Below, one piece after another: positions 4,412-39,506 of a stretch of 57,792 nucleotides of DNA. This stretch comes from an uncultured Acetatifactor sp. (lineage in GTDB: Bacteria; Bacillota; Clostridia; Lachnospirales; Lachnospiraceae). The stretch is from assembly GCA_947589505.1 (NCBI GenBank), contig CANQCF010000003.1:1-57792 (forward strand), read 5' to 3'. Each line of letters begins with the position of its first letter. The first letter of the stretch is position 1. A model generated the notes under the pieces. That model ran no database searches. It saw only the letters and a list, made by a program, of their open reading frames with translations, and had not been told where the DNA came from. The position numbers were made by a program, and so were the translations under genes.

Positions 4412-4444
4412 ACCGATATACATATCTATGCAACATCCGTTATA

Positions 4445-4897: not shown

Positions 4898-4906
4898 GTG
4901 CTCACC

Positions 4907-5581: not shown

Positions 5582-5654
5582 GTTTGTTGTCCCATCCTTC
5601 TCTGACAGATGGCTTAATAGGATTTATCGGAAAACTTTTTTGCGGGCGCCCGGG

Positions 5655-7190: not shown

Positions 7191-7222
7191 ACATCCTCCA
7201 AATGTTAAAATCATAAACCTTC

Positions 7223-7387: not shown

Positions 7388-7492
7388 AACTATTCTAACA
7401 AATCCGGCATTTGTTGTAAAGAAAATCCGTCATTTATTGTAAAAAGTGAAAAGGGGCGGTTCCGGCAGGGGTAACGGCGGGGACGCCCCCGC

Positions 7493-7524
7493 GAAAACAG
7501 GGCGCCTCCGAAACGGACGCGCCC
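7493..7524 (-). terminator. Probable terminator of htrA
   Basis: On the minus strand GGGCGC pairs with GCGCCC, and inside it TCCG pairs with CGGA around a TTT loop. TGTTTT follows. It lies about 40 nt after the htrA stop. A further GC hairpin (near 7477-7492) follows it. Confidence 0.6.
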
Positions 7525-7565
7525 CAGTCGTAAATCTTTATGTCATATCCGGCAAACTCTGCCTT

Positions 7566-9008: not shown

Positions 9009-9120
9009 AATACATTCCCCTTTCTGAAATATATTCTGGAAGTCCGGAATCTTTTCCTTCCTTTCATGAGATCAGTTTACCTTCGAATTGTGTAGGTTTT
9101 GTGTCGCTCTTATGAAAAGA

Positions 9121-10050: not shown

Positions 10051-10060
10051 TTCACTTCCC

Positions 10061-10088
10061 AAAAGAGGAGCCCCGGAAGGCTCCTCTT
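10061..10088 (-). terminator. Rho-independent terminator after the LCP gene
   Basis: A perfect 10-bp stem (AAGAGGAGCC/GGCTCCTCTT) with a 6-nt loop, followed on the minus strand by TTTT. It lies 13 nt after the LCP stop, and its T run abuts the start region of the next gene. Confidence 0.8.
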
Positions 10089-10101: not shown

Positions 10102-11277
10102 CTATTGTTTTGGATACTTTGAGGAGAAGGTTTTGATGTAATCGCTGGCCTCTTTCACGTTGCCCGTGACGGTATAATCCTCATCATCAAACAGGAACTG
10201 ATGCAGCCACACCACATTGGCCTCCAGATCCTCCGGCACAACGCAGCTTCCCTTCGCTCCCATATTTCTTACAGAGCGGCTCTCCTCCAGAGGGAATCCC
10301 CCTTCATCCGCAATCCGGTAACTCCAGAGATCCGATATCAGGGAAACTATCTCGTCAGGCTGAAGGCTGGTGTAGATATCCCTCTGAGCATTCTCAAAAG
10401 CGGTGAGAAGGGTATCCAGATCAGATTTTTTTGCCTGGGCCTCTATGGCCTTCAGAACCTCCCGCTGCCGCTCCGCCCTGGCAAAATCATTGCCGACTGC
10501 GCGGATTCTGCAGTAACCGGCGGCCTGAATGCCGCTCACCAGCTGGTACCCCGGAGTACTCAGCGGTTCATAGGGAACATCCATCGTCTTGCCGATGCTG
10601 ATCCCGTAATTGTTCAGATGGGGAAGTTCATTCTTGTCAACGTCAATATATACGCCGCCCAGAGCGTCGATCACTTCCACCAGTGCCCAGTAGCTGACTG
10701 TCACAAAATCCTTGATATCCATATCCAGATTGGTGTTCAGCATCTTTACAGCCTGTTCCGCGCCTCCCGTGGCATAGGCCGCATTACACTTGCTGTAGGA
10801 ATCACCGAGATTTAAAAAGGTGTCTCGGTAAACGCTGACCAGCTTGATGTCGCCTGTGTCCTGATTGATGCTGGCGATCATGATGGTGTCGCTTCGAAAG
10901 CCTTTCAGAAGTCCGCTGTCCCTCAGCGTTCCTGCCGGAAGCAGATCAATGACCTGTCCCCCCGCATCCGTCTTTGCCTTGCTGATATCCACACCGAACA
11001 GCGCGATGTTCCGATATCCCTTCATAACCTCACTCTGCTGGATCTCGTGAGGAATTTCCAGATCTCCCTCATCCAAAACCTCAATTTTGATGCCTGTCTC
11101 ATCAGATCTTGTAACCCTTGTCACTATATAGAGAACTGTCAGCATCACCGCAATGATGATCAGTTCCACCATAAATATGACAATCTTTGCCGTCTTGGAT
11201 TTTTTTGCTTTTTTCTTCTTCCCGGATGTTCTCCTGCTTTGCGCTGTTGTACTTCTCTGGTCATAATTTGTTGACAT
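10102..11277 (-). CDS. LytR-CpsA-Psr family glycopolymer ligase
   Basis: Membrane-anchored phosphotransferase that moves a lipid-linked glycopolymer onto peptidoglycan. The 391-residue protein has a basic cytoplasmic head (KKKKAKKSKTAK), one transmembrane helix (about 30-53) and an extracellular LCP domain. Family signatures are FRSDTIMIASI, KLVSVYRDTF and the hallmark RIRAVGNDFARAERQREVL. It is 13 bp downstream of the WbaP-like gene and shares its promoter, which fits: one gene starts the polymer on the carrier lipid, the other attaches it to the wall. Confidence 0.9.
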   Translation of the reverse strand: MSTNYDQRSTTAQSRRTSGKKKKAKKSKTAKIVIFMVELIIIAVMLTVLYIVTRVTRSDETGIKIEVLDEGDLEIPHEIQQSEVMKGYRNIALFGVDISKAKTDAGGQVIDLLPAGTLRDSGLLKGFRSDTIMIASINQDTGDIKLVSVYRDTFLNLGDSYSKCNAAYATGGAEQAVKMLNTNLDMDIKDFVTVSYWALVEVIDALGGVYIDVDKNELPHLNNYGISIGKTMDVPYEPLSTPGYQLVSGIQAAGYCRIRAVGNDFARAERQREVLKAIEAQAKKSDLDTLLTAFENAQRDIYTSLQPDEIVSLISDLWSYRIADEGGFPLEESRSVRNMGAKGSCVVPEDLEANVVWLHQFLFDDEDYTVTGNVKEASDYIKTFSSKYPKQ

Positions 11278-11290
11278 GATACCTCTCCTC

Positions 11291-12697
11291 TTAAATTGCG
11301 TTTTTGTTTATAAACCCCGTAAAAAAAGTCATGATGATAATCTTTACGTCAAACCAAAAGCTCCAGTTTTCAATATAGTAAATATCGTATTCAATCCTCT
11401 TGCGGATAGATGTGTCTCCGCGATACCCGTTGACCTGGGCCCATCCGGTAAGTCCCGGGCGGACCTGGTGTTTGATCATATACCTGGGGATCTCCTCCTT
11501 AAACTTCTCCACAAACAACGGTCTCTCGGGTCTCGGCCCCACAAGGCTCATATCTCCTTTCAGAATATTGAACAGCTGCGGAAGTTCGTCCAGGCTCGTT
11601 CTGCGGAGGAACTTGCCTATGCCCGTGACCCTGGGATCATTCCTTGTAGTCCAAGCCTTTTTCTCCTCAGCCGGATCCTGCTGTGCCATACTTCGGAATT
11701 TATACATAAAAAAAGTCTTATTGTGCAGGCCAACCCTCTCCTGCCGGAAGATGACCGGCCCGGGGCTGGAGATCTTCACCAGAAGGGCACATAGAAGCAT
11801 GATGGGGGAGGTGATCACAATCCCAAACAGAGAACCCACGATATCCATCGTCCGCTTCAGGACCATATTTCCCGTGTTGGAGAGCGGGACATACCTGATA
11901 TTGATAACCGGCAGTCCCATCAGATCCTCCGTATAAGGCCTGGTAGGTATCAGGCTGTTGTAGTCCGGAATGAATTTTGTGTGCACGCCGGTCTTCTCAC
12001 AGATCCTCACAATTTCTTCCAGATAATCGTAATCTTTCAGGGAAAGGGTGATCGCCACCTCATCCCAGTCGTTCTCCTCCAGCATCTTCGGGAGAAGTTC
12101 GATGGTTCCCAGCACCTTCACGCCCTTATAGAGGGCCTCCGCCGGCACATGGTCATCCAGGAATCCGCTCACGGAATATCCCCACTGCGGATTGTCCAGG
12201 ATACGGTCCACATACGCCTCCGCAGCTCTGGAATACCCAACCAGAAGAATGTGTTTTACGTTATATCCCTTCTTCCGGATCGACTGCAAGGATTTCCGAA
12301 GCACTACCCTGGAAAGTCCCGTCAAAAAGCAGTTCAGGAGATAAAAGAACAACATCACGGATCTGGAAAAATTAAACTCCCTGACTACCATGTACAACAC
12401 GATAATCAGCAGCGCAATTCCCACGGTATTCGCCTTTATGATGTCAAAGATCTCAAATCTCCGCTTCGCTGCACGCCTGGGAGTATAGACACCCAGACGG
12501 TAATATAGAACCATATATCCGGGGATGATAAAGATCAGCAGCGATACATAAGACCCCAGAGGGAGCACACCGAGGCCCGGACCGTTGTTCAAAATATAAA
12601 ATTTGAAGAGATAACTCAGGATCAACGAAACCGCGGTGATAACAGCATCGATCAGAACCAGCAGTCTGTTGAACACCTTTTGATTGTCCTTAATCAT
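11291..12697 (-). CDS. Polyprenyl-phosphate sugar-1-phosphate transferase (WbaP/CpsE type)
   Basis: Initiating enzyme of the glycan pathway; it transfers a sugar 1-phosphate to undecaprenyl phosphate. The N-terminal half has four to five membrane helices and a Rossmann-like region (VKHILLVGYSRAAEAYVD). The C-terminal catalytic domain starts with KRTMDIVGSLFG and contains FRQERVG, FMYKFRSM, RRTSLDELPQL, DMSLVGPRPE and PGLTGWAQVNGYRGD. Its length of 468 is normal for the long form. The sugar (glucose or galactose) cannot be decided. A strong promoter and an operator array lie just upstream. Confidence 0.9.
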   Translation of the reverse strand: MIKDNQKVFNRLLVLIDAVITAVSLILSYLFKFYILNNGPGLGVLPLGSYVSLLIFIIPGYMVLYYRLGVYTPRRAAKRRFEIFDIIKANTVGIALLIIVLYMVVREFNFSRSVMLFFYLLNCFLTGLSRVVLRKSLQSIRKKGYNVKHILLVGYSRAAEAYVDRILDNPQWGYSVSGFLDDHVPAEALYKGVKVLGTIELLPKMLEENDWDEVAITLSLKDYDYLEEIVRICEKTGVHTKFIPDYNSLIPTRPYTEDLMGLPVINIRYVPLSNTGNMVLKRTMDIVGSLFGIVITSPIMLLCALLVKISSPGPVIFRQERVGLHNKTFFMYKFRSMAQQDPAEEKKAWTTRNDPRVTGIGKFLRRTSLDELPQLFNILKGDMSLVGPRPERPLFVEKFKEEIPRYMIKHQVRPGLTGWAQVNGYRGDTSIRKRIEYDIYYIENWSFWFDVKIIIMTFFTGFINKNAI

Positions 12698-19289: not shown

Positions 19290-19435
19290 GTTCGCTCTCC
19301 GCCGCCCCTCAGATCCTTTTTTCGATGTAAGTATTCCCTGATTTCATAGAGAATCTTTCACTCCCTGTCATTCTCAAAACCGCCCTTGCGATCTTTCCGT
19401 CGTTCCGCCTCCGGGCTTTGCTCCATACAACCCGG

Positions 19436-20920: not shown

Positions 20921-23062
20921 CTATCCCTGTGTTTGCTGCTGGTTTCCCCGCAGGGAAAAATCGCTCCTGTCCAGAGAAAAGTTGGGGTTATAGTAAGGAT
21001 CCCCCGCCGCCAGCACTTTTTTCCACTTCTGCCGGAACCTCTCCGACTCCCGGTTGTAGCGCTCCGCCTTTTCCCCCTGATCGTCCGCCCCTCTGGATAC
21101 GGACTCATAGTGATACAGCTCCGCAAAAGGCGTCCACACGTTCAAAAGCCCCTTCTCCCGCAGCTTCAGACAAAAGTCCACATCGTTCAGGGAGATCTCA
21201 AAACCTTCGTCCAGGCCCCCCACTTCCTCATACAGGGATTTTTTCACAAGAAGGCAGGCCCCCGTCACCGCGCTGACGTTCTGGGCGTAACAGAGCCGCC
21301 CCATATAACCCAGGTTCTGCTTCGGAACCCGATAGTGGCTGTGCCCCGCGGTGCGGTGTGCCCCAAGGCCGAGAACCACGCCCGCATGCTGGATGGTTCC
21401 GTCCGGGTAATAGAGCTTCGCGCCTGCCGCGCCCACGTCCTCCCGCTGGGCGTACATGAGCAGCTCTTCCATCCAGTTGGAAGTGATCACCTCCGTATCG
21501 TTGTTCAGAAGGAGAATGTAGTCGCCGGAGGCGTACTTTTCTCCCAGATTATTGACTGCAGAATAGTTGAAACGTCCCCGGTAAGTGACGACCGCCGTCC
21601 TGCCGTCCCGGCTCCTGAGACAGTCTCCGTCCTCCGGCCCGCAGGACTTTGTCTCTCTTTCAGGCCCGGAAAAGCCTTCCTGTCCCACAGCCGCCGATCC
21701 CTTTTCAGCCATACCGTCCGTCCCTTCACCGGCAGCCGCACGGGCGTAGTCATATCCCAGAAGACGGCTGTAATACTCCCGGATCTCCGAAGTCTCGCTG
21801 TTGTTTTCCAGGATCAGGATCTCATAATTTTCGTAAGTGGACTTTTCCAGTATGGAAGAGACGCAGCGCCGCAAATCCTCCGCGTGGTCCTTATTGGGGA
21901 TCAGTATGGAGATCTTCGGACTGCCCTGGATCCGGTAGCGGATCCGGAAGATGGTCTCGCAGGCACGGGTGCTGGTGATGACAAAGTGCGAGAACCCGTG
22001 GTGCCTCAAATGGTCCGCCACAGCCCCCTTCGCCGCCTCGATGGCATAGGGCTTCGCGCCGATGCCCGACGCCGTGCTGTCCGCATGACTCCGCCAGTAA
22101 TACATGAGCTTCGGCACATGGACGATCCTTTCCGCCCGGTCCGTGAGCCGCAGGATCATATCGTGGTCCTGGCTGCCGTCAAAATCCGTCCGGAACAGTT
22201 CCTCCCCCTCCAAAAGCTTTCTCGCAAAGACGCTGAAATGGCAGATATAATTGTTTGCCCGCAGGTTGTCCAGGGCGTAGTCCGGCTTAAAATGCATGGT
22301 CAGCATCTTGTCGATATTGCCGCTCTGGAAGGTGGTCTCGTCGCAGTAGAGGTAGTCCGCCCCCTGTTCATTGACGGCCTTCACATATTCATAGAGGACG
22401 CTGGGGTGCAAAATGTCGTCATGGTCAAAAAGACCGATATACTCCCCCGTGGACATGGCGAAGCACTGGTTCGTATTCCCTGAGATCCCTTCATTCTTTT
22501 CCAGCTTCCGGTAGAGGATGCGTCCCTCCGACTTTTCCTGATACTCCCGGCAGACCTCCCCCACATAAGCGTGCTCTTCGTCGGAACCGTCCGCCAGACA
22601 CAGCTCCCAGTTCCGGTAAGTCTGATTCATCACCGAGTCCAGCATCTCCCGCAGAAATTCCCGGGGCGTGTTCCACAGGGGGACAAGGATACTGATCTTT
22701 ATCATCCGTTCAAACCTGGCGTTCCGCTGGGCTTCCGCCTGCTCCGGGGTGGGAAAACTCCCCGTGCCGTAGCTCTTCATCAGGGATTTCTGGCGGCGTT
22801 TCGCCGCGATCTTCCGGGCGATATCCTTCGGCCCTCCACAGTGGGACAGTCTCTCCATCTGCCGGGCCCCGAAGTGGATCAGCCCCCTGACAGGTTTCGT
22901 GAGCTTCCAGAGTTTGTTGTTCTTGATCCTGTCCAGCTGAAACTGCAGGTCTTCCTTCTCGCTCTCCAGCAGCACCACCCTGTCCGCGAGATCCTCGCTG
23001 CGCTCCTGTTCCCTCTCGTATGCTTTTTTGTAATCGAACTCCTCCAACTTCCTCAAACCCAA
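20921..23062 (-). CDS. Two-domain family 2 glycosyltransferase
   Basis: A 713-residue cytoplasmic protein. Residues 10-48 are a charged coiled coil. The first GT-A domain (about 121-340) has IKISILVPLWNTP, CLADGSDEEH and LFDHDDIL; the second (about 381-640) has PKISILIPNKDHAEDL, ILENNSETSEI and LLLNNDTEV. A low-complexity Gly/Glu-rich insert (about 440-490) sits inside the second domain. Such double GT2 proteins make two linkages in O-antigen and rhamnan clusters. The start is TTG with GGAAGG almost adjacent; a TTG two codons later has better spacing, so the exact start is uncertain. Confidence 0.85.
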   Translation of the reverse strand: MGLRKLEEFDYKKAYEREQERSEDLADRVVLLESEKEDLQFQLDRIKNNKLWKLTKPVRGLIHFGARQMERLSHCGGPKDIARKIAAKRRQKSLMKSYGTGSFPTPEQAEAQRNARFERMIKISILVPLWNTPREFLREMLDSVMNQTYRNWELCLADGSDEEHAYVGEVCREYQEKSEGRILYRKLEKNEGISGNTNQCFAMSTGEYIGLFDHDDILHPSVLYEYVKAVNEQGADYLYCDETTFQSGNIDKMLTMHFKPDYALDNLRANNYICHFSVFARKLLEGEELFRTDFDGSQDHDMILRLTDRAERIVHVPKLMYYWRSHADSTASGIGAKPYAIEAAKGAVADHLRHHGFSHFVITSTRACETIFRIRYRIQGSPKISILIPNKDHAEDLRRCVSSILEKSTYENYEILILENNSETSEIREYYSRLLGYDYARAAAGEGTDGMAEKGSAAVGQEGFSGPERETKSCGPEDGDCLRSRDGRTAVVTYRGRFNYSAVNNLGEKYASGDYILLLNNDTEVITSNWMEELLMYAQREDVGAAGAKLYYPDGTIQHAGVVLGLGAHRTAGHSHYRVPKQNLGYMGRLCYAQNVSAVTGACLLVKKSLYEEVGGLDEGFEISLNDVDFCLKLREKGLLNVWTPFAELYHYESVSRGADDQGEKAERYNRESERFRQKWKKVLAAGDPYYNPNFSLDRSDFSLRGNQQQTQG

Positions 23063-23166: not shown

Positions 23167-25062
23167 TTACTCCCCCGCCGGTGTCCGAAGGCTCTTTCCC
23201 GACCACCCCAGGAGCTTCAGCCGTGAAAACCGATGGACGGCCAGTACGCCGATGCGGTAATCGCCGGATGGCAGATTTTCTCCCTTCCGGCCTGCCCGAA
23301 ATTCCGCCAGCGCCACATGCTTCTGATCCGGAAGATTTTCCTCCAGATCCCCCCGGTACTGCTTCTCCAGCTTCATGCAGAAAAGCTCTCCCCCATCGGC
23401 CCCGGACTTTTCCTCGGGGCATAGAATCAGATACTGCTCATAGCAGGCGTTGTCGTCCCCCAGCACCACGCTGTACCCCTGGATCCTCTCCGGCCCGGCA
23501 GTCTCCACCCGGACCATCACGCAGGGATCCTCCCGGTATGCCGCAAGGTGCGCCGGCAGCCGTTTCCAGGCCGGCGGCTGGGTAAACGACCGGGAGTACA
23601 CATAGCCCGGCAGAATATGACTGTCCAGCCCCTCCCCGTTTAACTGCTCCGGGTAGTAGGGATCCCGCCCCTTAAGGGCCGGGTGCAGCTCATAGAGCAG
23701 CTTCCTCTCCTTCTCCAGACGTCTGAGCTTCTCCGGATCCGCCTCGTCATTTCCCCGGCTCAGGGATTCATGGTGCACCGCGGAAAAATGGTTCAGCGTC
23801 ACATTCTGATACCCCGACTCCCACAGGCGGAAACACAGCTCCACGTCATTGTATGCGATCTTTAAGTCTTCCCGGAAACCGCCGGCCTCCAGAAACTTTT
23901 TCTTCTCCGTCATCAGACAGGCCGCCGTCACCGCCAGTCCGTTGTAGTTCAGCCGATTCCTTCCGAAATAATGGTCGATATCGTCCCGCAGATACTGCAT
24001 CTTGTGGACCGGCCCCACGGCCAGGTTCGTGACCCCGGCGTGCTGGATCTTTTCGCCTCCCGGATAGAGAAGCTTTAATCCCGCGGCCCCCACATAGGGC
24101 AGCGCCGCCTTCCGCTTCATGGCCTCCAGCCATTCCCTGCCGCTGACTTCCACATCATCGTTCAGAAACAGCAGCAGATCCCCCTTCGCCTGGGCTGCCC
24201 CCAGGTTGCACATGGCCGAGAAATTAAATTCCATCGGCCGATAGAGATAGGTCCCTCCCCGGGTCAGTTCTTCCAGGATCCTTCTGTTTTCGGGACTGCT
24301 GCCGTTATCCACCACGATAATGTCCAGGTCCCGCCTGCTGCCGCCCTGGGTCAGCGCACTCAGGCATTTTTCCAAAACCCCGGGATTGTCCCGGGAGGGA
24401 ATGATCACTGACACTGTGCCCGGGTCCCGCCCGTCTTCCCGCTGCAGCTCTGACGCCGCGCGCAGATATTGTTCCCAAAGGGAAGGGTCCTGTGCGTGAA
24501 ACAGGATCTCCGGCAGCCGGGCGATAGAACCGCAGCCCCGCTCAAAGCCCCCGGCAGCGGAAAACGCCCTGTCCAGACAGTTTCGGACGTCATCCGATAT
24601 CTCCTCAAAGAGGATCCGATCCCCTTTTTTCGTAAGCTCCCGGGGCAGAGTCAGGACTTTCTCCGCAAAAGACTTCCGAAGGGCCACAACGCTCCCCGGA
24701 TAAAAGCAGTCCAGATAGAGGTCCGGGGACCAGCAGGGCTTGTACCAGGGATCTCTCCGGATCCCGTCCTCCCCCAGAATATCCTCGTCCCCATACAGGA
24801 TCAGACACTCCTGATGAGCCGCGAAAAACCTTCCGATGCGGTCTTCTGCGCCCTCGTTCATCCGGCCCTTTTTCTGACAGAACAGGATATACTCCTCCGA
24901 AGCGCCGTCTCCGGCCGGAATCGGATCTTCCCCATGCCGCAGCTCCGCCTCCTGCTCTCTGACCCAGGAATCGTAGTCTACTTTTTTTTGCGCAAGCGCT
25001 TTTTCATATTCCCGATCCAGCCGCTCTGTCAGCAGCTCCTTCACCCTGCCTCTGATCCCCAA
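23167..25062 (-). CDS. Family 2 glycosyltransferase with degenerate first domain
   Basis: A 631-residue protein. The N-terminal part keeps only the second half of a GT-A fold (LYGDEDILGEDG, then WSPDLYLDCFYPGSVV). A full GT-A domain follows (about 210-450): TVSVIIPSRDNPG, IIVVDNGSSPEN, LLLFLNDDVEVSG and IAYNDVELCFRLWESG. The C-terminal 130 residues are a separate beta-rich region without a family I can name. It begins with TTG after GAGGGCGGAA. A promoter lies about 210 bp upstream, so this is the first gene of the operon running to the SGNH/MBOAT pair. Confidence 0.8.
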   Translation of the reverse strand: MGIRGRVKELLTERLDREYEKALAQKKVDYDSWVREQEAELRHGEDPIPAGDGASEEYILFCQKKGRMNEGAEDRIGRFFAAHQECLILYGDEDILGEDGIRRDPWYKPCWSPDLYLDCFYPGSVVALRKSFAEKVLTLPRELTKKGDRILFEEISDDVRNCLDRAFSAAGGFERGCGSIARLPEILFHAQDPSLWEQYLRAASELQREDGRDPGTVSVIIPSRDNPGVLEKCLSALTQGGSRRDLDIIVVDNGSSPENRRILEELTRGGTYLYRPMEFNFSAMCNLGAAQAKGDLLLFLNDDVEVSGREWLEAMKRKAALPYVGAAGLKLLYPGGEKIQHAGVTNLAVGPVHKMQYLRDDIDHYFGRNRLNYNGLAVTAACLMTEKKKFLEAGGFREDLKIAYNDVELCFRLWESGYQNVTLNHFSAVHHESLSRGNDEADPEKLRRLEKERKLLYELHPALKGRDPYYPEQLNGEGLDSHILPGYVYSRSFTQPPAWKRLPAHLAAYREDPCVMVRVETAGPERIQGYSVVLGDDNACYEQYLILCPEEKSGADGGELFCMKLEKQYRGDLEENLPDQKHVALAEFRAGRKGENLPSGDYRIGVLAVHRFSRLKLLGWSGKSLRTPAGE

Positions 25063-25368: not shown

Positions 25369-27447
25369 TCAAAAAATCTTCTTCACCGACGCCGCCATGT
25401 CCTCCGCCATATCCTGGGGGAGCCTCACCACTTCAAGCCTCACGGACAGCGTATTTTCCGCCTGGCGGTCCAGCGCTTCCAGATCCAGGCTGATATTGGG
25501 ATCCGCCGTGGGAAAGACATAACTGGACTTCATCACCTTTCCGTTGACTGTCACAACCCCCTTTTTCCCCAGGGGCACCTCTCTCCCGTTAAATACCATG
25601 TCCAGCACCTTGCAGATACAGGGCTCCATCCCGGGATCAATGCGCAGCCGCCGCACATCCCCGCTGAGGGAAATCGTAAACTCCGCCTCCCTCTCACTCT
25701 GCCAGGGGTCCTCCAGGAACTCGGACTCCTCCTCCCGGTATCCGCTGCCCGTATCCCGGTAGATCTGGATGCGGGACGCGCCCTTGTCTTCCTGGTACCT
25801 GTGGATCCACTTTTGCGGGACGAGGACTTCCCCGCCCGTCAGATCCCGGATCTCCGCCATCGCCAGGCGATTCCCCGTGACAAACTTCTGAAACTCCCTC
25901 TCCTGGGCCCGGTAATTCTCCGCATCCTCCGGGGTGATCTCCAGCTCCGCCAGGATCCGGTCCAGATCCATGCGGTTGCGCTTTTCATCCTCCAGGAGAT
26001 AACAGTAGACAGCCCGAAATGCCGCTTCCTTTACAGGAACAGGTTTTCCAAAAGTCCATTCATAATCGATCAGCGTCCAGGTATCTCCCTGTATCAATAA
26101 ATTGGAAAAGATCAGATCGTAATCCGCCGCTTCATAATCGCTGTTGTAGCCGACCCGCTCCAGGTATTCCCGGAAAAGCCTGTGAAACCCTTCCGTATCC
26201 CCCTTTTCCAGACATTGATCCATCAGCTGGGAGAGGGGCGTGCCCTCCACAAACTCAAACTCCGCGTACAATTCTTCCGAGTCTTCCAGCCGGCAGCGGT
26301 TGATCTCCAGCCGGCCGCCCTCGTATTTTTTTACAAGGCTTTCATAAGCCGCCGCCATGCCGCGCACATGCTCCCGGGCCTCTTCCGAAAGAGGATATTT
26401 GCGGACATATCTCTCTCCCGATTCCTTTCTGCCGATCTCCGTGCGGATGGCAAACTTCGCCGCCCGGTCGTTGGAATACTTCACATAATCGCAGACAAAG
26501 CCGGGCCCGATCACCGCGAGATAAGAGTTTGCGAACACGGGGAACAGCCCGTCCTTCGCCGCGCCGTCAAAGGCCGCTTTTTCCGAAAATAAAAGCATCC
26601 GATCCCTGTCGAAATTCCGAAGGTTGTCGGTGAGTTCCCCCTGCCCCGGCAGCCGCCCGTCGCTGTACAGCGTGGTCATGAACTTATAGTCGGGGTAGGG
26701 GTAATAAAAATGCCGCTCCCCCGCGCCGCAGCGGTCGAAGATCTGCTCCAGCCCCTTCCGGCTGAAAGTCCTCACGCCCCCGCCCGCCTCATAATCCTCG
26801 ATCCCGGAGAAGAAAGTCCCCAGGTGATCCTCCCGGCAGCCCGCAAAATATTTCATGCCGTACTTGTTTTCGATGGCGATGAGAAGACGGCCGCCCTCCT
26901 TCAGATGGGGCAGGAGGATTTTCAAAAAGTCCCCATAGGGGTCCTCCCCTCCGATATAGCTCTGCCCGTACTCAAAGACGCCGATCAGGCAGATCAGGTT
27001 GTAATCCCTGTCAAGCTCCGGCTCGATATCCTTAAAATTGCCTACGCGGATGGTCACATTCTCACATTCGCTGTGACGGTACGCGTTTATCAGACTGCGC
27101 TTCCTCGAGAGTTCCACGCAGGTCACACTTCCGGCTTTCCGGGAGAGCACCCCCGTGATGGCGCCGCAGCCGCTGCCCACCTCAAGGACCTTTTCCGTCC
27201 CCTTCAGAGGAAGCCACTCCACGATATTTTCCCGCAGGGGCGAAAAATGATACAGGATCGGCCAGCTTTTGCTCTCTTCTATGACGCGGGCATACTCCAC
27301 CGGGGAAAGATCCCTGGCGATCCGCAGAAGCTCATTTTCCACTTCGCCGTCGCAATAAAGATCCTGTCCGGAATACTTTCTGTAATCCAGCGTCACTTTA
27401 CCGATGGTCTCCTGCTCCCCGTGCAGCGGCATCTCCCGTTCTTCCAC
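25369..27447 (-). CDS. Methyltransferase-kinase fusion, WbdD-like chain-capping candidate
   Basis: A 692-residue cytoplasmic protein. Residues 83-200 are a class I SAM methyltransferase (KVLEVGSGCGAITG, VTCVELS, LICLIGVFEY). Residues 330-490 look like a small-molecule-kinase fold: candidate beta-3 Lys350 in YVRKYPLS, hinge FEFVEGTPLSQLM, catalytic-loop Asp444 and Asn449 in YDLIFSNLLI, and metal Asp461 in LIDYEW. A C-terminal region (about 570-692) is beta-rich. In Gram-negative WbdD the same two activities methylate and phosphorylate the glycan end to stop growth. Here the gene sits directly after a Wzt with a C-terminal carbohydrate-binding-type domain, exactly the WbdD context. The kinase part is inferred from motifs only. 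Confidence 0.7.
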   Translation of the reverse strand: MEEREMPLHGEQETIGKVTLDYRKYSGQDLYCDGEVENELLRIARDLSPVEYARVIEESKSWPILYHFSPLRENIVEWLPLKGTEKVLEVGSGCGAITGVLSRKAGSVTCVELSRKRSLINAYRHSECENVTIRVGNFKDIEPELDRDYNLICLIGVFEYGQSYIGGEDPYGDFLKILLPHLKEGGRLLIAIENKYGMKYFAGCREDHLGTFFSGIEDYEAGGGVRTFSRKGLEQIFDRCGAGERHFYYPYPDYKFMTTLYSDGRLPGQGELTDNLRNFDRDRMLLFSEKAAFDGAAKDGLFPVFANSYLAVIGPGFVCDYVKYSNDRAAKFAIRTEIGRKESGERYVRKYPLSEEAREHVRGMAAAYESLVKKYEGGRLEINRCRLEDSEELYAEFEFVEGTPLSQLMDQCLEKGDTEGFHRLFREYLERVGYNSDYEAADYDLIFSNLLIQGDTWTLIDYEWTFGKPVPVKEAAFRAVYCYLLEDEKRNRMDLDRILAELEITPEDAENYRAQEREFQKFVTGNRLAMAEIRDLTGGEVLVPQKWIHRYQEDKGASRIQIYRDTGSGYREEESEFLEDPWQSEREAEFTISLSGDVRRLRIDPGMEPCICKVLDMVFNGREVPLGKKGVVTVNGKVMKSSYVFPTADPNISLDLEALDRQAENTLSVRLEVVRLPQDMAEDMAASVKKIF

Positions 27448-27505
27448 GCTTCCCGCCCCCTTTCTTCCAAATCAGCCGCGCCGCCGGACTTCCGCAGCGC
27501 AATCC

Positions 27506-28987
27506 CTATGCCTTTTTTGCAAAGGGGATCACCGTCTCTTCGTCCCTCCGCACGTCCGACACCTGGATTCTGGACCCCATATCGTAAAATCCCACCGTGT
27601 TCTTATCGGAGATCACGGTGATATTCAAGACATCGTAAAGTCGATGATACACCTCAAAGTTTTCCCCGTTATAGCCCGTCACGCCCAGGGACAGCAGATA
27701 TTCTCCGCCCTGCAGGCTCATTTGCTGAGTGAAGGTCACGTCCTTCACCTGACCGGCTCTCCCGGGTTCCAGATAGGCCTTCTCGATCATGGAATTCGTC
27801 CCCGTGATCTCCGTCCCCTGCACGTTTTTCACGCTGAACGCGAAGATGGGCGCCGGCACAGTTTCCAGGAAATGCACCCTCATGTGTACGGTAAACTCCG
27901 TTCCCTTGATCACCGCCGTGCTTTTCACGTCCCGCTCATCCGTAATGTAGAATTCCTCGATCCGGGCCTGTCCCGTACCATATTCCAGGGTTTCCGGATT
28001 CAAGGCATCCCTGTGCGTCCCTGCAGCGTCGGAAACAGTCTCCCCGGACTTTCGGTTCTGTTCCACTCCGGAGGTGTCTTCTCCTGCCGCGGCTTTTCCA
28101 TCCTTCCTCTTTTCTCCACTGCGCGCCCGGCCCTCCAGAGACCGCCCGGCGGCACGGCGAAGCTCCTCGTCTTCCAACAGGGTATCTTTTCCCCGATCCG
28201 GTATCTCATACTGTCCCACGAGAACGCGCTTATAGGTGTCGATCATCTCCTTGGGGCTTCCCTCCCCCAGGAGATTTCCCTGATTCAGCAGAAAAACCCT
28301 GTCGCAGTACTTGCTGATGCTGCTCAGGTCGTGGCTCACAAAGACGATGGTCTTGCCCATCTTCTTAAATTCCTCGAATTTATGGTAGCACTTTGCCTGA
28401 AAGAACACGTCGCCTACGGAGAGCGCCTCGTCCACGATCAGGATCTCCGGCTCGATATTGATAGCAACTGCGAACGCCAGCCTCACAAACATGCCGCTGG
28501 AATAGGTTTTGACCGGCTGGTACACATAATCTCCGATATCGGCAAACTCCAGGATCGACGGGAGCTTTTCGTCGATCTCTTTCTCAGAAAAGCCCATCAT
28601 CGTGCCGTTCAGATATACGTTTTCCAGTCCGCTGTACTCCTGGTTAAATCCCGCGCCCAGCTCCAAAAGGGCCGATATCCGGCCGTTTACATGAACCTCC
28701 CCGGAGGTGGGATTCAGCACGCCGGTGATGATCTTCAGAATCGTGGATTTGCCGGAGCCGTTAGTGCCGATGATGCCCACAGTCTCTCCCGGGTAAATCC
28801 GGAAACTGAGATCGTTCAGCGCATAATGGAGCTTATAGTTGGCTTTTCTGCGCAGGCCAAAGGCCTCCTTGACCCGGTCAAAGTTCCGCTCGTACAGTTT
28901 ATAGATCTTTTTTACATGATTCACTTCTATGGCGGGAGACTCTGCCTCCCGCGCCGTGTTCCGCTCTTCTTCCATGCTCCTTGTCAT
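27506..28987 (-). CDS. wzt: ABC transporter ATPase Wzt with C-terminal glycan-recognition domain
   Basis: ATPase of a polysaccharide exporter, 493 residues. Walker A GTNGSGKST (74-82), signature SSGMF (163-167), Walker B ILIVDEA (182-188) and switch His219. Residues 262-335 form a low-complexity linker rich in Gly, Ala, Glu and Arg. Residues 336-480 form a beta-sandwich-type domain (FAFSVKNVQGTEITGTN, GEYLLSLGVT) like the C-terminal domain of E. coli O9a Wzt, which binds the capped glycan end. The permease gene is two genes upstream, separated by a multi-pass protein gene. The methyltransferase-kinase gene follows after 58 bp. Confidence 0.9.
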   Translation of the reverse strand: MTRSMEEERNTAREAESPAIEVNHVKKIYKLYERNFDRVKEAFGLRRKANYKLHYALNDLSFRIYPGETVGIIGTNGSGKSTILKIITGVLNPTSGEVHVNGRISALLELGAGFNQEYSGLENVYLNGTMMGFSEKEIDEKLPSILEFADIGDYVYQPVKTYSSGMFVRLAFAVAINIEPEILIVDEALSVGDVFFQAKCYHKFEEFKKMGKTIVFVSHDLSSISKYCDRVFLLNQGNLLGEGSPKEMIDTYKRVLVGQYEIPDRGKDTLLEDEELRRAAGRSLEGRARSGEKRKDGKAAAGEDTSGVEQNRKSGETVSDAAGTHRDALNPETLEYGTGQARIEEFYITDERDVKSTAVIKGTEFTVHMRVHFLETVPAPIFAFSVKNVQGTEITGTNSMIEKAYLEPGRAGQVKDVTFTQQMSLQGGEYLLSLGVTGYNGENFEVYHRLYDVLNITVISDKNTVGFYDMGSRIQVSDVRRDEETVIPFAKKA

Positions 28988-28991: not shown

Positions 28992-30530
28992 TCACTGTGT
29001 TTCTTCCACTACGCACATTATGGCTTCTTTTTTATACCAATTTGCCATAAACCGATTTGCTTCATTATTGGGGTCTGCCGATAATTCACCCGCAAAAATC
29101 GGCGATGGTATGAAATGATAAGGAGGTACTCCTACTACGCTGCCTCCCTGTTTGATCATTTCCACCCTCTTCAGATATTCCTTGTGGAACTCATTGGCCT
29201 CGCCCGTGTGGACAAAGTGATACGCGCAAAACGAAGAATAGTCCCTTGCCTGATAGGGATCCAGCGAAAATACCAGCAGCATGAATGCTGCCACCGCCAG
29301 ATAATGAACCAGCGGAATCCCTTCTCCGCCTCCCTTGTATCGTTTCCTCAGCGTCCGGGCTGCCGCCGCTGCCCTGCCTTCCTTTTGGGTTTGATTCTGC
29401 AGCCATCCCAGCCAGTACACCGTATTAAGCAGCAGAAGAATCTGGTAAGTGATCTTTACCGCGTTCAGCGTTCTTCCAATTCCCTCATGACCCATTGCGT
29501 AAAAACTGGGTGTAAAACCTGTTGCGTAAAAGCAGAAGGACCAAAGCAGGATCAATCCGGGGTATGAGAATGGAAAAGATATTTTTTTCACCATCCTCCA
29601 GATGACCGGCGCCAGCAATATCAAAAACAGCACCGTCCTAATACCTGTAAAACCCCACATATTGCGAAATGCCGCCAAAAAAGACTGCACTATGGAATCC
29701 ACAGGCCCCAGACCGGTAAAATTTGCCTGCCGGACATTGTTGCCGGGAGCCGATACATTTTTGTAAAATCCAAATGCATACACCGCGAGAGAAGGCAGCA
29801 AGAGCAGGGTCCGCAGGCGGCGGAGCAAAATTCCCAGAGCAATGATACTGACGATCAGGATAAGTCCCTGCAGCGTTGTCACATAATTGGAGCCTCCGCC
29901 TATAACAGCTCCCAGAACAGCTAGCAAAGACAAAATGACAGCATTCAACTTTCCCTTCCCCGCAAGCAGCCGGATCCAGACCGCGGCGGTCAGCATCAGC
30001 ATCGAGTGCATTCCCACATAGTGGATGCCGGAATTGTACCAGTAAAAACCCGCCCTGTCACTGTGAATAAATTCCACCAGGATGGCAGCGGAAGCAGCGG
30101 ACAGGATCACAGCGGAAGAGATGTCCGCCTTCAGCACCTTTCTCAGGCATGTCCAGCTCAGCACAAAGGCCGAAGCGGTCAGAAGACAGATCAAAAACAT
30201 CGGCCCTGCAAAATAGAGGGATTCATTCCAGGCCAAAGGCGCGATCGCCATAAAAAAGCAGGAAGAAAAGGTTCCCTGCCACGCATACCACTGGGTTTTT
30301 ACACAGTATAGCGCTCCCTTCCAGGCATTGGCCAGCGTGTAGTCCAGGGACAGAAAACTCCTCACGCTTTCAGCATATCCGTAATCGTCATACCAGGGTA
30401 TCGTGTAGATCGCGATCCGCAGCAGCGGTACGAGCAAAAGAAGCATCGCCGCCACCGCCAGCACGGCCACCAGCCTCATGTCCGGTTTCCATAACCCAAT
30501 CTTTTTGATTTTCTCCCACAAAGTTTTCAT
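28992..30530 (-). CDS. Multi-pass membrane protein, DUF6056-like, possible GT-C glycosyltransferase
   Basis: A 512-residue protein with about ten to twelve hydrophobic helices. The first extracytoplasmic loop holds IPWYDDYGYAESV and QWYAWQGTFSS, an acidic loop like that of GT-C enzymes and of DUF6056 proteins. GT-C enzymes use polyprenyl-phosphate sugars outside the membrane, so a side-chain transferase is plausible. It stops 4 bp before wzt and lies between wzm and wzt, an unusual position that suggests a direct role in export or decoration. The family name is from memory. Confidence 0.6.
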   Translation of the reverse strand: MKTLWEKIKKIGLWKPDMRLVAVLAVAAMLLLLVPLLRIAIYTIPWYDDYGYAESVRSFLSLDYTLANAWKGALYCVKTQWYAWQGTFSSCFFMAIAPLAWNESLYFAGPMFLICLLTASAFVLSWTCLRKVLKADISSAVILSAASAAILVEFIHSDRAGFYWYNSGIHYVGMHSMLMLTAAVWIRLLAGKGKLNAVILSLLAVLGAVIGGGSNYVTTLQGLILIVSIIALGILLRRLRTLLLLPSLAVYAFGFYKNVSAPGNNVRQANFTGLGPVDSIVQSFLAAFRNMWGFTGIRTVLFLILLAPVIWRMVKKISFPFSYPGLILLWSFCFYATGFTPSFYAMGHEGIGRTLNAVKITYQILLLLNTVYWLGWLQNQTQKEGRAAAAARTLRKRYKGGGEGIPLVHYLAVAAFMLLVFSLDPYQARDYSSFCAYHFVHTGEANEFHKEYLKRVEMIKQGGSVVGVPPYHFIPSPIFAGELSADPNNEANRFMANWYKKEAIMCVVEETQ

Positions 30531-30628: not shown

Positions 30629-31609
30629 CTATAACACATCCGCAAAATGAACCTTAAGACGCTTAAAAATCACCACGCCAATTCCAAACAGGACAACCGT
30701 TGCGATCCAGAAGTACATCGTGGAGAAGAAATCCTGAAAGAACCATTCCCGCCGATAGACCGCGCTCCTGTACCCCTCAACAATGTAGACGAGAGGATTC
30801 AGTTTTACAAAAATCACCCACTTTGACGGGAGACTGTTGATATCCCACAGAATCGGCGTCGCCCAGATACCGATCTGCAGGACAATGTTGATAATCTGAG
30901 ACAAATCCTTAAAAAACGCCACAATAGCGCATGTGGAGTAACTCAAAGCAAGGACAAAGACAAACAGACAAGCGCTGTAATAAAAGATCTGAAGCGTATA
31001 CACAGTAGGGTAATAACCGTACATCGCCGCGACGATCAGGAGAACCAAGATAAAAAAAGCGTGGATAAAGGTGGCGGCGATCACTTTTATAACCGGCAGT
31101 ATGCTGATCTTAAAGACCACTTTCTTCACCAGATAATCGTATTCCCGCAGCGCATTTGTCCCATTGTTCCAGGCCTCGCTGAAAAAGAACCATGGCACAA
31201 GTCCCGCCGTGAGGAACAGTACAAAGGGCGCTTCCTGCGTCCTTGACGCTCCCGGCATTACTACCTCAAAGACCACATAATACATTGCCACCGTTATAAC
31301 CGGCTGGACCATGGCCCAGACCGCGCCCAGATAGGAACCTGCGTACCGCTTTTTAAAATCGTTTTTTGCCAGCTTCCAGATCAGGTGCCTGCTCTGATAC
31401 AATTCCGCCGGAAGCGTCGTAAATTTATCGTATCCCGTCGCAAAAATCACACAGGAAATCAGGATCACCACACAGGAGATCAGCTTTTTCAGCAGTTCCT
31501 CCCGGGGATCAGCGGCAGGGCCGCGGTTCTGGTGAAGGACTATGACCACCGCCATAAAAAACCCCGCCAGACAGAATATCGTAATCCCACCCTTTTTGCC
31601 AAGCTTCAT
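30629..31609 (-). CDS. wzm: ABC-2 type polysaccharide exporter permease Wzm
   Basis: Permease of the glycan exporter, 326 residues. The usual family core begins at LIWKLAKNDFKKRYAGSYLG (about residue 76) and continues with GAVWAMVQPVITVAMYYVVF, WFFFSEAWNNGTNALREY and LNPLVYIVEGYRSA. An N-terminal extension of about 70 residues adds two hydrophobic helices that typical Wzm proteins (about 260 residues) lack. rmlC ends 6 bp upstream. With wzt it moves a finished, lipid-linked polymer to the outside. Confidence 0.85.
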   Translation of the reverse strand: MKLGKKGGITIFCLAGFFMAVVIVLHQNRGPAADPREELLKKLISCVVILISCVIFATGYDKFTTLPAELYQSRHLIWKLAKNDFKKRYAGSYLGAVWAMVQPVITVAMYYVVFEVVMPGASRTQEAPFVLFLTAGLVPWFFFSEAWNNGTNALREYDYLVKKVVFKISILPVIKVIAATFIHAFFILVLLIVAAMYGYYPTVYTLQIFYYSACLFVFVLALSYSTCAIVAFFKDLSQIINIVLQIGIWATPILWDINSLPSKWVIFVKLNPLVYIVEGYRSAVYRREWFFQDFFSTMYFWIATVVLFGIGVVIFKRLKVHFADVL

Positions 31610-31615: not shown

Positions 31616-32185
31616 TTACCTTCCGATCCCGTGTTCCTTTTTGTACTCTGCGATGCCGCCCCACTTGGTGTCACGGTCGGAGAAGATCAGCTCCATATCC
31701 TCCGCGATGGGCCAGTCGATCCCGATGTCCGGGTCGTTGTAGGCCAGTCCGCCCTCGTCCCCCGGGTGATAGAAATCGCTGCACTTATAGCAGAACTCCG
31801 CGTAATCGGACAGCACCAGAAAACCGTGGGCAAAGTTCTTGGGGACGAAAAACTGCTTCTTATTTTCCTCGGAGAGGACGACCCCGAACCACTTTCCAAA
31901 GGTTTTGGACCCCTCCCGGAGATCCACCGCAACGTCGAAGACTTCTCCCCGGATCACCCGGACCAGCTTGTCCTGGGGAAACTGCTTTTGAAAGTGAAGC
32001 CCCCGGATCACGCCCCTCTTGGATGCGGACTGATTGTCCTGCACGAAGATCTGGGGGATCCCCGCCTCCTTAAAATCGTTGTACTGATACGTCTCTATGA
32101 AGTATCCTCTCGCATCCCCATGTACCTGAGGCGTAATGATCTTCAGGCCCTCGATCTCACAGGTCTCCACCGTAATCTGTCCCAT
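31616..32185 (-). CDS. rfbC: dTDP-4-dehydrorhamnose 3,5-epimerase
   Basis: Third enzyme of dTDP-L-rhamnose synthesis, a cytoplasmic cupin of 189 residues, the normal length. Signatures: HGDARGYFIETYQ, FVQDNQSASKRGVIRGLHFQ (catalytic His in GLHFQ), VAVDLREGSKTFGKW, VPKNFAHGFLVLSD and the C-terminal AYNDPDIGIDWP. GGAAGG precedes the ATG. It lies with rmlA and rmlB in the operon, but the final reductase RmlD is not in this window. Confidence 0.95.
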   Translation of the reverse strand: MGQITVETCEIEGLKIITPQVHGDARGYFIETYQYNDFKEAGIPQIFVQDNQSASKRGVIRGLHFQKQFPQDKLVRVIRGEVFDVAVDLREGSKTFGKWFGVVLSEENKKQFFVPKNFAHGFLVLSDYAEFCYKCSDFYHPGDEGGLAYNDPDIGIDWPIAEDMELIFSDRDTKWGGIAEYKKEHGIGR

Positions 32186-32440: not shown

Positions 32441-33712
32441 TCATCGGTAGCTGATATCCAGATCCACATTCCCGTCGATTCCGTCGATGGAACCCTTGGA
32501 GGTATGCTGCCACATCTCGTAGTACCCATCATATGTGGGAGCACTTCGATATTCCGCAAGCCAGATCACATACTTTTCCAGCTTGCTCACATCGACACGG
32601 GTCTGGTACCAGTTCTTGCTGGCGTACACGCCTGCGGTATAGCCCGCGTTCCGAATCGTCCGGCAGAACGCCTCGCAGACAAGGGTTCTGGTCTCCACAT
32701 CCAGGCCGTCCGCCCTGCCGTTTCCTCCGGCCCCCTCCGTATCGATAAAGATGGGGTATTCCGGGGAAAAATCCCGGATGAGCTCCAGCACCATGGAAGC
32801 TTCTTCCACCGCCTCCACCTCGTTCGTGGCCTGGGTGAAGAAATACACGCCGGTGGGGATCCCTGCCGCCGCGGCCCCCCGCATATTGCTTTCAAAACAG
32901 GGGTCTTCAATCAGTGCCCCAACGGTGGATCCTCGATAGCCCGCCCGGATGATGGCAAACTCCACGCCGGCCTCTTTCACCCGCTGCCAGTCGATATCTC
33001 CCTGCCACTTTGAGACGTCGATGCCTACTTTTGTCTTCTTGGTACCCTGCTGAAGGTCTCGGATCTCCGAGCCATCCGCCTCCTGCTCTGCCTCCCGGCC
33101 GCCGGTATCCTCCGCCTCCGCGTCGATCTCATCCTCCGTCTTGATCAGAAGGGAAATATCCTCGATGGGGATATACTCCACCTTTTCCTTGACGCGGACG
33201 CGGGTCTCGTTTTCAGGAACCCGGTAACCCTCTATGGGATTCAGGGAGACGTAGTACTCCCCGGCATTCAGATCCCCGATATAGATGACTCCGTCCTGGT
33301 CCAGATCCTTGAAATCTCCTATTCCGTCCAGCGTCACATAAAAACTCTCTCCCGTCACCACCCTGTCTTCCTGATCCAATATCTGGATTCTCAGATCCTT
33401 TTCCACAGAAGTGACAAAGAGGGAGAGCCGATTGGACTGATCCATAAGTTCATCCAGGAAAGCGTTCCTCTCCGGATCAAAAAAAGTACTGTCCGTTTCA
33501 AAAGCGGAGAGATCCGTGCCGATCTGGCCCGGAAGCCCCTGCTCCGCCTCTGATCCCGACCCGGCAGTCCCTCTTTCCGTACTCTGGAGACTTCCGCCCC
33601 GGGAGTTCCCGCTGCTGTCCCGGTTCAGCAAAATCACCAGGAAGGACACCAGAAGGACTGCCGCCAGGGATACCAGGATGGTAATCTTTTGCAGCCTAGA
33701 GTCCATTTGCAA
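32441..33712 (-). CDS. Membrane-anchored GH25 muramidase with Cna-B-like domain
   Basis: A 423-residue protein: N-terminal transmembrane anchor (about 8-27), a spacer, a Cna-B-like module ([33 protein letters not shown]; about 100-170), and a C-terminal GH25 domain (about 222-423). GH25 signatures are [26 protein letters not shown] and YPIFIDTEG, with the Asp and Glu of the active site. The enzyme cuts the N-acetylmuramic acid bond in peptidoglycan, perhaps to open sites for polymer attachment. Its start overlaps the end of rmlA by 17 bp. The 1200-residue protein upstream shares the anchor/Cna-B/GH25 order. Confidence 0.85.
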
Positions 33713-34565
33713 CCTCTACCAGATATTTGCCGTAATTGGTCTTCATCAAAGGCTCCGCCAGCTTTAAGAGCTGATCCTTATCTATAAATCCGCGCTTATA
33801 GGCGATCTCCTCGATACAGGAGATATACAATCCCTGTCTCTTCTGGAAGGCCGCCACAAAGTCGGAGGCGTCCAGCAGCGCGTCGTGGTTTCCGGTGTCC
33901 AGCCAGGCAAAGCCCCTGCCCAGGGTCTCCACATGAAGCTTTCCCCTTCTCAGATATTCATTGTTGACGCTGGTGATCTCGATCTCTCCCCGGGCGGATG
34001 GCTTCACATTCTTCGCGATATCCACCACATTGTTATCGTAGAAGTACAGCCCCGGCACCGCGTAGTTGCTCTTGGGGTTGGCGGGCTTTTCCTCGATGGA
34101 AAGCGCCTTGCCGCTCTCGTCAAACTCCACCACGCCGTACTCCCTGGGATCACGGACATAATAGCCGAAGATGGTAGCGCCGTCTTCCCTGGCGGCGACC
34201 TCCCTCAGCACCCTGGAAAAACTCTGTCCATAAAAGATATTGTCTCCCAGAACCAAGGCCACCCGATCGTCTCCAATAAACTTTTCTCCGATGATGAAAG
34301 CGTCCGCCAGGCCTCTGGGGTACTCCTGCACCGCGTAGGAGAACTCCATGCCGAGCTGGTTCCCGTCCCCCAAAAGCTCTTCAAACACAGGAAGATCCCG
34401 GGGCGTAGAGATGATCAGGACTTCCCGGATCCCCGCCAGCATCAGCGTGGACAGCGGGTAATAGATCATCGGCTTATCATACACCGGCATGATCTGCTTG
34501 GAGACCGCCTTGGTGAGAGGATAAAGTCTGGTGCCGGAGCCCCCGGCCAAAATGATTCCCTTCAT
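33696..34565 (-). CDS. rfbA: Glucose-1-phosphate thymidylyltransferase
   Basis: First enzyme of dTDP-rhamnose synthesis: dTTP plus glucose 1-phosphate gives dTDP-glucose. A cytoplasmic protein of 289 residues, the family length. Signatures: [17 protein letters not shown] (nucleotide loop), [45 protein letters not shown] and [14 protein letters not shown]. It is 21 bp downstream of rmlB and overlaps the GH25 gene by 17 bp. The phosphoglucomutase at 16.2-17.9 kb supplies its substrate. Confidence 0.97.
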
Positions 34566-34586: not shown

Positions 34587-35669
34587 TTAGGACTGATACA
34601 TTTCAGAGTAATATTTCTGGTAATCGCCGCTGGTCACGTTCTTCATCCAATCCTCATGTTCACAGTACCAGGCGATGGTTTTTTTGATCCCTTCCTTAAA
34701 CATGGTCTCAGGCTCCCACCCGATCTCCGCCTTGATCTTGTCGGGAGCGATGGCGTACCTGCGGTCGTGTCCCTTGCGGTCCTGCACATAGGTGATCAGA
34801 TCCCGGTTGATATGAGCCTTCCTGGGATCGCTGTCGGGAAGCATCTCCTGGAGGGTCTCCAGAATGATCTCTATGATCTCAATATTTCTCTTTTCGTTGT
34901 GTCCGCCGATATTATAGGTTTCGAAGAGCCTGCCCTTCTCCTGCACCATGTCGATGGCCTTGGCGTGATCCTCCACATACAGCCAGTCGCGGACGTTCCT
35001 TCCGTCGCCGTAGACGGGAAGACTCTTTCCCTGAAGGGCGTTGTTGATCATCAGGGGGATCAATTTCTCCGGGAACTGGTAAGGACCGTAGTTGTTGGAG
35101 CAGTTTGTGATGTTCGCCGGGAAGTGATAGGTGTCCATATAGGACCTCACCAGCATATCCGAACTGGCCTTGCTGGCGGAATAAGGGCTGTGGGGAGAGT
35201 AGGGCGTCGTCTCATAGAAAAAGGCGCTGTCGTCGTCCGGGAGGGAACCGTACACCTCATCCGTGGAGACATGCAGAAACTTCTTGTCCTCCTTAAATGT
35301 GCCGTCTTCCTTTTCCCAGGCTGTCTTTGCGCAGTTCAGCATCACCGCGGTGCCCATCACATTGGTCTGCACAAAAACCTCGGGATTGCGGATGCTCCTG
35401 TCCACATGGCTCTCCGCCGCAAAGTGCACCACCCGGTCGATATCGTTCTCCGCGAAGATCTTTGAGATGGCTTCCTTATCGCAGATGTCCGCCCGGATGA
35501 AAGTATAATTAGGAAGATTCTCCACATCCTTCAGGTTTTCCAGGTTGCCTGCGTAAGTAAGGACATCTACGTTTATAATGCGGATGCTGTCCCCGTATTT
35601 CCGAAACATGTAGTGGATATAATTGGAGCCGATAAATCCGGCGCCCCCCGTCACCAAGTATGTTCTCAT
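34587..35669 (-). CDS. rfbB: dTDP-glucose 4,6-dehydratase
   Basis: Second enzyme of dTDP-rhamnose synthesis, forming dTDP-4-keto-6-deoxyglucose. An extended short-chain dehydrogenase of 360 residues. NAD loop VTGGAGFIGSNYIHYM, catalytic STDEVYGSL and YSASKASSD (Tyr-x3-Lys), and FPEKLIPLMINNALQG are visible. Its product is a branch point in this locus: RmlC leads to rhamnose, while WecE (44.8-45.9 kb) would aminate the same intermediate. It is the second gene after the large GH25 gene. Confidence 0.97.
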   Translation of the reverse strand: MRTYLVTGGAGFIGSNYIHYMFRKYGDSIRIINVDVLTYAGNLENLKDVENLPNYTFIRADICDKEAISKIFAENDIDRVVHFAAESHVDRSIRNPEVFVQTNVMGTAVMLNCAKTAWEKEDGTFKEDKKFLHVSTDEVYGSLPDDDSAFFYETTPYSPHSPYSASKASSDMLVRSYMDTYHFPANITNCSNNYGPYQFPEKLIPLMINNALQGKSLPVYGDGRNVRDWLYVEDHAKAIDMVQEKGRLFETYNIGGHNEKRNIEIIEIILETLQEMLPDSDPRKAHINRDLITYVQDRKGHDRRYAIAPDKIKAEIGWEPETMFKEGIKKTIAWYCEHEDWMKNVTSGDYQKYYSEMYQS

Positions 35670-39413: not shown

Positions 39414-39506
39414 AAAATCTGTCCTTTCATATACGCGTATAGGCCATGGACATAAAATCCATTTCTTTTTAAAGTTAGACATTTTATTGTTCATTTTATC
39501 ATGCTC

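Follow-up and report, generated by a model that had tools for sequence, protein, structure and literature searches.

The stretch of DNA analysed here, which we call the window, is a 57,792-nucleotide piece of the genome of an uncultured Acetatifactor sp. of the family Lachnospiraceae (contig CANQCF010000003.1). It carries a gene for a 692-residue protein, MTK, in which an S-adenosylmethionine (SAM) methyltransferase is joined to a kinase-like domain, next to the gene for Wzt, a 493-residue ATP-binding cassette (ABC) transporter ATPase with a C-terminal glycan-recognition domain (Wzt_C). These genes lie on one strand in the order rmlB-like, rmlA, GH25, rmlC, Wzm, DUF6056-like, Wzt, MTK, GTb, GTa, with Wzt read before MTK and 58 bp between the two (Table 1). 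An earlier, sequence-only reading had singled out the 692-residue protein, its SAM motif I at about residues 88-96 and the Wzt with its extra domain 58 bp away, and both the coordinates and Pfam confirm that description; the motif, at 88-96, reads LEVGSGCGA. The window's own genome holds one copy of MTK. The open reading frame (ORF) is called from a GTG, and the true start may sit a few codons 3′ of it, because many homologue matches start at about residue 11-13.

Above chance, the Pfam scan of MTK returned methyltransferase families only (Methyltransf_23 at residues 71-241, E = 1.3e-7); kinase families were absent. Because the Foldseek and VIA lists for the whole model were filled by methyltransferases, we folded residues 303-562 alone, and the predicted structure was a kinase fold, which upholds the kinase-like domain proposed from the sequence. 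The four active-site candidates put forward at the same time, K350, D444, N449 and D461, proved invariant across 47 homologues. In a raw hidden Markov model (HMM) alignment D444 was kept in 101/119 sequences and N449 in 106/119; reading the sequences revealed mostly alignment shifts, and the D-x4-N pattern is truly missing from two proteins, L097 and one copy at L093. The latter locus (genome G086) has two adjoining methyltransferase-kinase ORFs (3905-8200 and 8207-10075), a 622-aa copy beside Wzt that is without D-x4-N and a 1431-aa copy that has it. Beyond the kinase, the MTK model shows a beta-rich domain at residues 587-675, and a comparison of the C-terminal domain with PDB sequences gave nothing below E = 1.

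Across the Lachnospiraceae, MTK and Wzt_C travel together. In a survey of 250 genomes of the window's family (thresholds of E 1e-20 for MTK and E 1e-5 for Wzt_C), MTK occurred in 122 genomes and Wzt_C in 147; 119 had both, 3 had MTK only, 28 had Wzt_C only and 100 had neither. Wzt_C was found within 5 kb on the same contig, always on the same strand, at 111 of the 119 listed MTK places, and Wzt lay upstream in 109 and at a distance of 300 bp or less in 86. This order is conserved in a further set: a scan of genome contigs found 468 relatives, and in the 80 that we kept, which come mostly from Lachnospiraceae or Acetatifactor, Wzt precedes MTK in 79 loci, 76 of these within 300 bp, while the remaining locus starts at a contig edge. 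In a sample of 398 genomes from the phylum, 12 matched at 1e-15, and four of these belong to the window's own family; a plasmid collection gave two records that matched MTK. Among genomes with MTK, Wzt_C was missing genome-wide only in G076, G186 and G188. A natural exception to the pairing is seen at L101 (G076), where a methyltransferase-kinase stands in a rhamnose-type locus with a Wzt that has no reader domain (2485-4087 and 7472-9355).

When 120 neighbourhoods were scanned with our own domain HMMs, the methyltransferase, the kinase and a Wzt with its C domain were all present in 113. These comprise 57 with a fused methyltransferase-kinase ORF, 12 in which this ORF is fused also to a glycosyltransferase (GT), 24 with split methyltransferase and kinase, and 20 with a methyltransferase and a kinase-GT ORF. 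Seven genomes with a high-scoring Wzt_C had seemed to lack MTK, having none at E 1e-20, but proved to carry, next to Wzt, methyltransferase and kinase domains that are divergent; they therefore support the pairing and are counted among the 113. Distances between loci (n = 53) gave the kinase a partial correlation of 0.62 with WztC versus 0.40 with the Wzt nucleotide-binding domain (NBD), a contrast for which the bootstrap excludes zero. An earlier run on 17 loci had given a stronger contrast (0.53 with WztC, 0.0 with WztN). We prefer the 53-locus run; all Mantel p values sit at the 300-permutation floor and do not discriminate.

The profile of the window's Wzt_C domain matched 2r5o best among PDB sequences (E 6.8e-8), followed by 8dku (E 0.012), whose chain is also the best PDB match of the whole window Wzt. 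We take 2r5o, labelled in the database only as 'putative ATP binding component of ABC-transporter', to be the Escherichia coli O9a Wzt-C, and 8dku, labelled 'ABC transporter', to be the Aquifex aeolicus Wzt. In the A. aeolicus system, as in the one proposed here, the C-terminal domain of Wzt reads the chain cap, which there is a methyl ether lidded by Trp362 (PMC9445017). The 8dku chain as aligned has W at 363, one position off from Trp362, and the window residue at that place is Arg449, within the motif YHRLYD; the same region reads DRRYD in 2r5o and HDRRYD in the Wzt of Pseudomonas and Citrobacter. Among MTK-linked loci (113 matches from 117 loci), all 112 domains that reach the column have arginine, a pattern behind part of which there may be shared descent. 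The window has a Wzt with a reader domain directly beside the putative terminator, as in cap-dependent Wzm/Wzt export.

The sequence-only reading had called MTK WbdD-like, after the E. coli O9a protein. The functional parallel stands: WbdD likewise combines a methyltransferase with a kinase, its D351, N356 and D369 are spaced like D444, N449 and D461 of MTK, and chain termination is required for ABC export in O9a (PMC3482155). WbdD differs in that its kinase is eukaryotic-like and is followed, within the same protein, by a coiled-coil region (PMC3482155), and the better relative lies elsewhere. No WbdD appeared among the phmmer matches of MTK (E up to 1), nor among matches of the kinase and whole-MTK profiles (E up to 10; for the whole protein, the best 60 of 91 rows), which still leaves room for kinship; nor was it among the best 50 structural matches of the kinase in two lists, an absence that does not point to a different fold.

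ORF6 of Klebsiella pneumoniae O7 is the better relative because of its layout and of homology through a Pseudomonas protein. It combines an AmiN-like kinase, stated to differ from that of WbdD, with a methyltransferase; together they give a mixed phospho- and methylphospho-product at O-3 of the terminal rhamnose, and the D441A variant loses activity (PMC11231755). Like MTK, ORF6 runs from methyltransferase to kinase (Asp 441 there, 444 here) to a further domain, a carbohydrate-binding module (CBM) there and a beta-rich domain here, and in both cases a GT2-GT2 polymerase follows and rhamnose is implicated, by the glycan there and by genes here. ORF6 differs in having its coiled coil and GT2-GT2 within one polypeptide and in serving a lipopolysaccharide O antigen, whereas the window has separate genes, belongs to the Bacillota and includes a LytR-CpsA-Psr (LCP) ligase gene. 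MTK shares with ORF6-type proteins the SAM methyltransferase and a kinase fold with catalytic Asp/Asn/Asp, and not the same-chain coiled coil. Orthologues described for ORF6 are alpha- and gammaproteobacterial and cyanobacterial, with optional GT2 modules (PMC11231755). The linking protein comes from Pseudomonas asturiensis plasmid pCC1524, where Wzm and Wzt are followed by 1457 aa that unite MTK, a predicted coiled coil and GT2-GT2, as published for ORF6; six of the seven residues named for ORF6 fall at identical numbers in it, with the catalytic Asp two positions off, and its GT part is 37% identical to window GTa. The second plasmid record, Citrobacter braakii pF217-3, has rmlBACD, then Wzm, Wzt, a 649-aa MTK-like protein with a predicted coiled coil at 559-599, and two GTs; its match to MTK spans residues 31-357 only.

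The polymerase neighbour GTa begins with a predicted 37-residue coiled coil. All 50 GTa homologues taken gave a segment at that place. Of the 32 ORFs in which a kinase is fused to a GT, 27 gave one near the junction. These calls come from a home-made score that was calibrated with shuffled proteins of the window; because it marks segments in MTK (475-521), Wzt, Wzm and GT672 too, we treat the result as a lead only.

We consider it likely that the locus encodes an ABC-transporter, polymerase-terminator route to a rhamnose-containing lipid-linked polysaccharide, with MTK as terminator and Wzt-C as cap reader. By homology to K. pneumoniae O7, on which the proposed product and order of reactions are modelled, the MTK kinase would phosphorylate the sugar at the non-reducing end, which is most likely rhamnose, and the methyltransferase would then methylate that phosphate, so that growth stops. 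The N-terminal coiled coil of GTa is a candidate spacer that might delay capping, a ruler role that we infer; terminator and polymerase would be separate proteins in the window and a single chain in several relatives. Wzt-C would bind the cap and thereby license export by Wzm/Wzt, after which the LCP enzyme would probably attach the exported chain to peptidoglycan. Gene content points to rhamnose and to wall attachment, and LCP is a presumed partner of this polymer, since its gene lies 14 kb away from MTK. The sequence-only reading had suggested that the cap and length-control logic of O9a acts on a Gram-positive polymer; the kinase-like domain, the Wzt-C partner, the family-wide pairing and the LCP gene in the window agree with that suggestion, which we retain in this conditional form.

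Several observations weigh against this interpretation. No rmlD was seen among the 39 window ORFs scanned, and no biochemical or glycan data on the window polymer were found in the literature. The Fisher p of 2e-39 for co-occurrence comes, like the figures behind it, uncorrected for descent. At L101 and L186 both enzyme domains accompany a Wzt without the C domain, L215 (a short contig) has only the kinase domain and again a Wzt without the C domain, and at L102, L103, L179 and L195 (the last a short contig) no Wzt lies within the stretch. Eight short loci from outside the family (3.2-4.0 kb) include Wzt_C in three, only the Wzt N domain in one and no Wzt in four, and a kinase domain was detected in four. 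The contrast between WztC and NBD was not significant for the methyltransferase (bootstrap -0.03 to 0.35, n = 53), and WztC correlates equally with Wzm (0.63). Assignment of the kinase to the APH type is not unique, since KEOPS Bud32 ties structurally, and among its weak matches by sequence profile eukaryotic kinases rank best (GCN2, E 0.0037). The heptad scan called no coiled coil at the C terminus of MTK, after residue 521; the C-terminal domain aligns weakly with the Pseudomonas fusion (3 of 300 shuffles were equally good); and the Citrobacter protein has shifted active-site residues, with Glu at the D461 position. The control for the arginine is also weak (n = 14): among 20 MTK-free Wzt_C loci, in which our HMMs found no methyltransferase or kinase domains, 14 matched, 7 of them short of the column, 3 with a gap, 2 with Arg in another context, 1 with Tyr and 1 with Trp.

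That the window terminator is fused to neither polymerase nor ruler would suit an enzyme that adds phosphate and methyl to internal sugars or to those of side chains, in which case Wzt-C would merely recognise modified polymer. We find this improbable, given that kinase and GT2 modules share one ORF in 32 of 120 neighbourhoods, mostly with the junction coiled coil described above, as in the published terminator layout, that the homologue ORF6-O7 acts on terminal rhamnose, and that the partner Wzt carries a reader domain typical of cap-dependent systems. A cap could also take another form, a phosphate monoester or a 2,3-cyclic phosphate on rhamnose, with the methyltransferase acting on a sugar hydroxyl or being accessory. 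The ABC-exported S-layer glycan of Clostridioides difficile Ox247 ends in 2,3-cyclophosphoryl-rhamnose (PMC6254364), and Geobacillus stearothermophilus WsaE gives a plain 2-O-methyl cap (PMC2943079). Both domains are nevertheless present in 118 of the 120 neighbourhoods, and a phosphate-only cap would not need a methyltransferase; the product of the O7 homologue is a methyl-phosphate; and the reported cyclic phosphate could, speculatively, be a degradation product, because a methyl phosphodiester with a free hydroxyl next to it would be able to cyclise in alkali. Such a cap thus seems to us quite doubtful.

Both Gram-positive precedents are S-layer glycans whose loci likewise have Wzm/Wzt and rhamnose genes, and the window glycan might accordingly be an S-layer or other protein glycan rather than a wall polysaccharide. 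The window, however, has an LCP gene, presumed to serve this polymer, and an initiating transferase, and no O-oligosaccharyltransferase family was found among the 39 ORFs Pfam-scanned, which are part of the window's ORFs, so we regard a protein glycan as unlikely. Capping before export, which we favour, already has precedents in Gram-positives in WsaE and Ox247. WsaE resembles the window system in being Gram-positive, in its rhamnose glycan, in Wzm/Wzt export and in an N-terminal methyltransferase proposed as capper; it differs in its 2-O-methyl cap, its fused glycosyltransferases and its S-layer protein glycan, and the portion of that report used here mentions no kinase (PMC2943079). C. difficile SLCT-11 (Ox247) is clostridial, with a rhamnose-rich, ABC-exported glycan that has a phosphate-modified terminal rhamnose and that its authors compare with O9a; unlike our proposal, it has a reported cyclic phosphate and a protein-linked glycan, with no capping enzyme assigned in the portion of that report used here, the words 'methyltransferase' and 'kinase' being absent from the main text (PMC6254364).

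Among the matches listed from the open PMC literature, none dealt with an MTK/Wzt_C module in Lachnospiraceae. How Gram-positives control the length of the wall polysaccharides that they export by ABC transporters is, to our knowledge, poorly settled. If the module works like that of O7, clostridial wall glycans would have a defined end group and be quality-checked at the pump, and the fused and split variants would offer natural material for testing the molecular-ruler model. The broader claim, to which we give about an even chance, is that, in roughly half of the sampled genera of this gut family, a wall polysaccharide anchored to peptidoglycan passes a cap-and-read checkpoint: a kinase-methyltransferase puts phosphate or methyl-phosphate on the terminal rhamnose, and Wzt-C reads it via the conserved arginine. 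If so, gut commensals would display a chemically distinctive and so far unnoticed chain end, with length set by separate or fused terminator and polymerase modules. Ruminococcus gnavus, another gut bacterium, has a rhamnose polysaccharide, glucorhamnan, that is described in a review as immunologically active; an unrecognised phosphate end group could therefore matter to host sensing.

Table 1. Position of the features discussed, in window coordinates
Feature	Position	Strand	Basis or remark
LytR-CpsA-Psr ligase, candidate polymer-to-peptidoglycan transferase	10102..11277	(-)	Pfam
Initiating sugar-phosphate transferase (Bac_transf + CoA_binding_3)	11291..12697	(-)	Pfam
GTa, GT2-GT2 glycosyltransferase, homologous to C-terminal part of P. 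asturiensis fused terminator-polymerase	20921..23062	(-)	Pfam; alignment
Predicted coiled coil, GTa residues 16-52, candidate ruler	22907..23017	(-)	home-made heptad score
GTb, GT2 glycosyltransferase	23167..25062	(-)	Pfam
MTK, methyltransferase-kinase, proposed chain terminator	25369..27447	(-)	692 aa, GTG start
MTK residues 563-692, beta-rich C-terminal domain, CBM-like by position only	25372..25761	(-)	model; weak Pseudomonas-fusion match
MTK residues 303-562, kinase domain (K350, D444, N449, D461, E463)	25762..26541	(-)	
MTK residues 12-302, class I SAM methyltransferase domain	26542..27414	(-)	
Wzt, ABC transporter ATPase with C-terminal glycan-recognition domain	27506..28987	(-)	ABC_tran + Wzt_C
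Wzt_C domain, residues 334-470; conserved YHRLYD, Arg449 at proposed cap-pocket lid	27578..27988	(-)	Pfam E 2.5e-39
DUF6056-related protein between Wzt and Wzm	28992..30530	(-)	below Pfam cut-off
Wzm, ABC-2 membrane subunit	30629..31609	(-)	Pfam
rmlC (dTDP-rhamnose pathway)	31616..32185	(-)	Pfam
rmlA	33696..34565	(-)	Pfam; NCBIfam rmlA over cut-off
rmlB-like dehydratase	34587..35669	(-)	Pfam GDP_Man_Dehyd/Epimerase; named by family and position

Farther out from the core genes lie an MBOAT/DltB-like protein, a phosphomutase, more GT2 proteins, the initiating sugar-phosphate transferase and the LCP ligase. The DltB-like MBOAT protein and an unannotated 360-aa neighbour (window 18207-20908) occur in some relatives only and could provide acyl decoration, and the DUF6056-like protein is missing or placed elsewhere in some related loci. 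Two GH25 lysozyme-like genes adjoin the rhamnose genes (window 32441-33712 and 35811-39494); one of the GH25 proteins, of 1227 aa, has a choline-binding repeat match just under the Pfam cut-off. Near the start of the window (292-1446), Pfam identifies a helix-turn-helix domain fused to a SAM methyltransferase domain.

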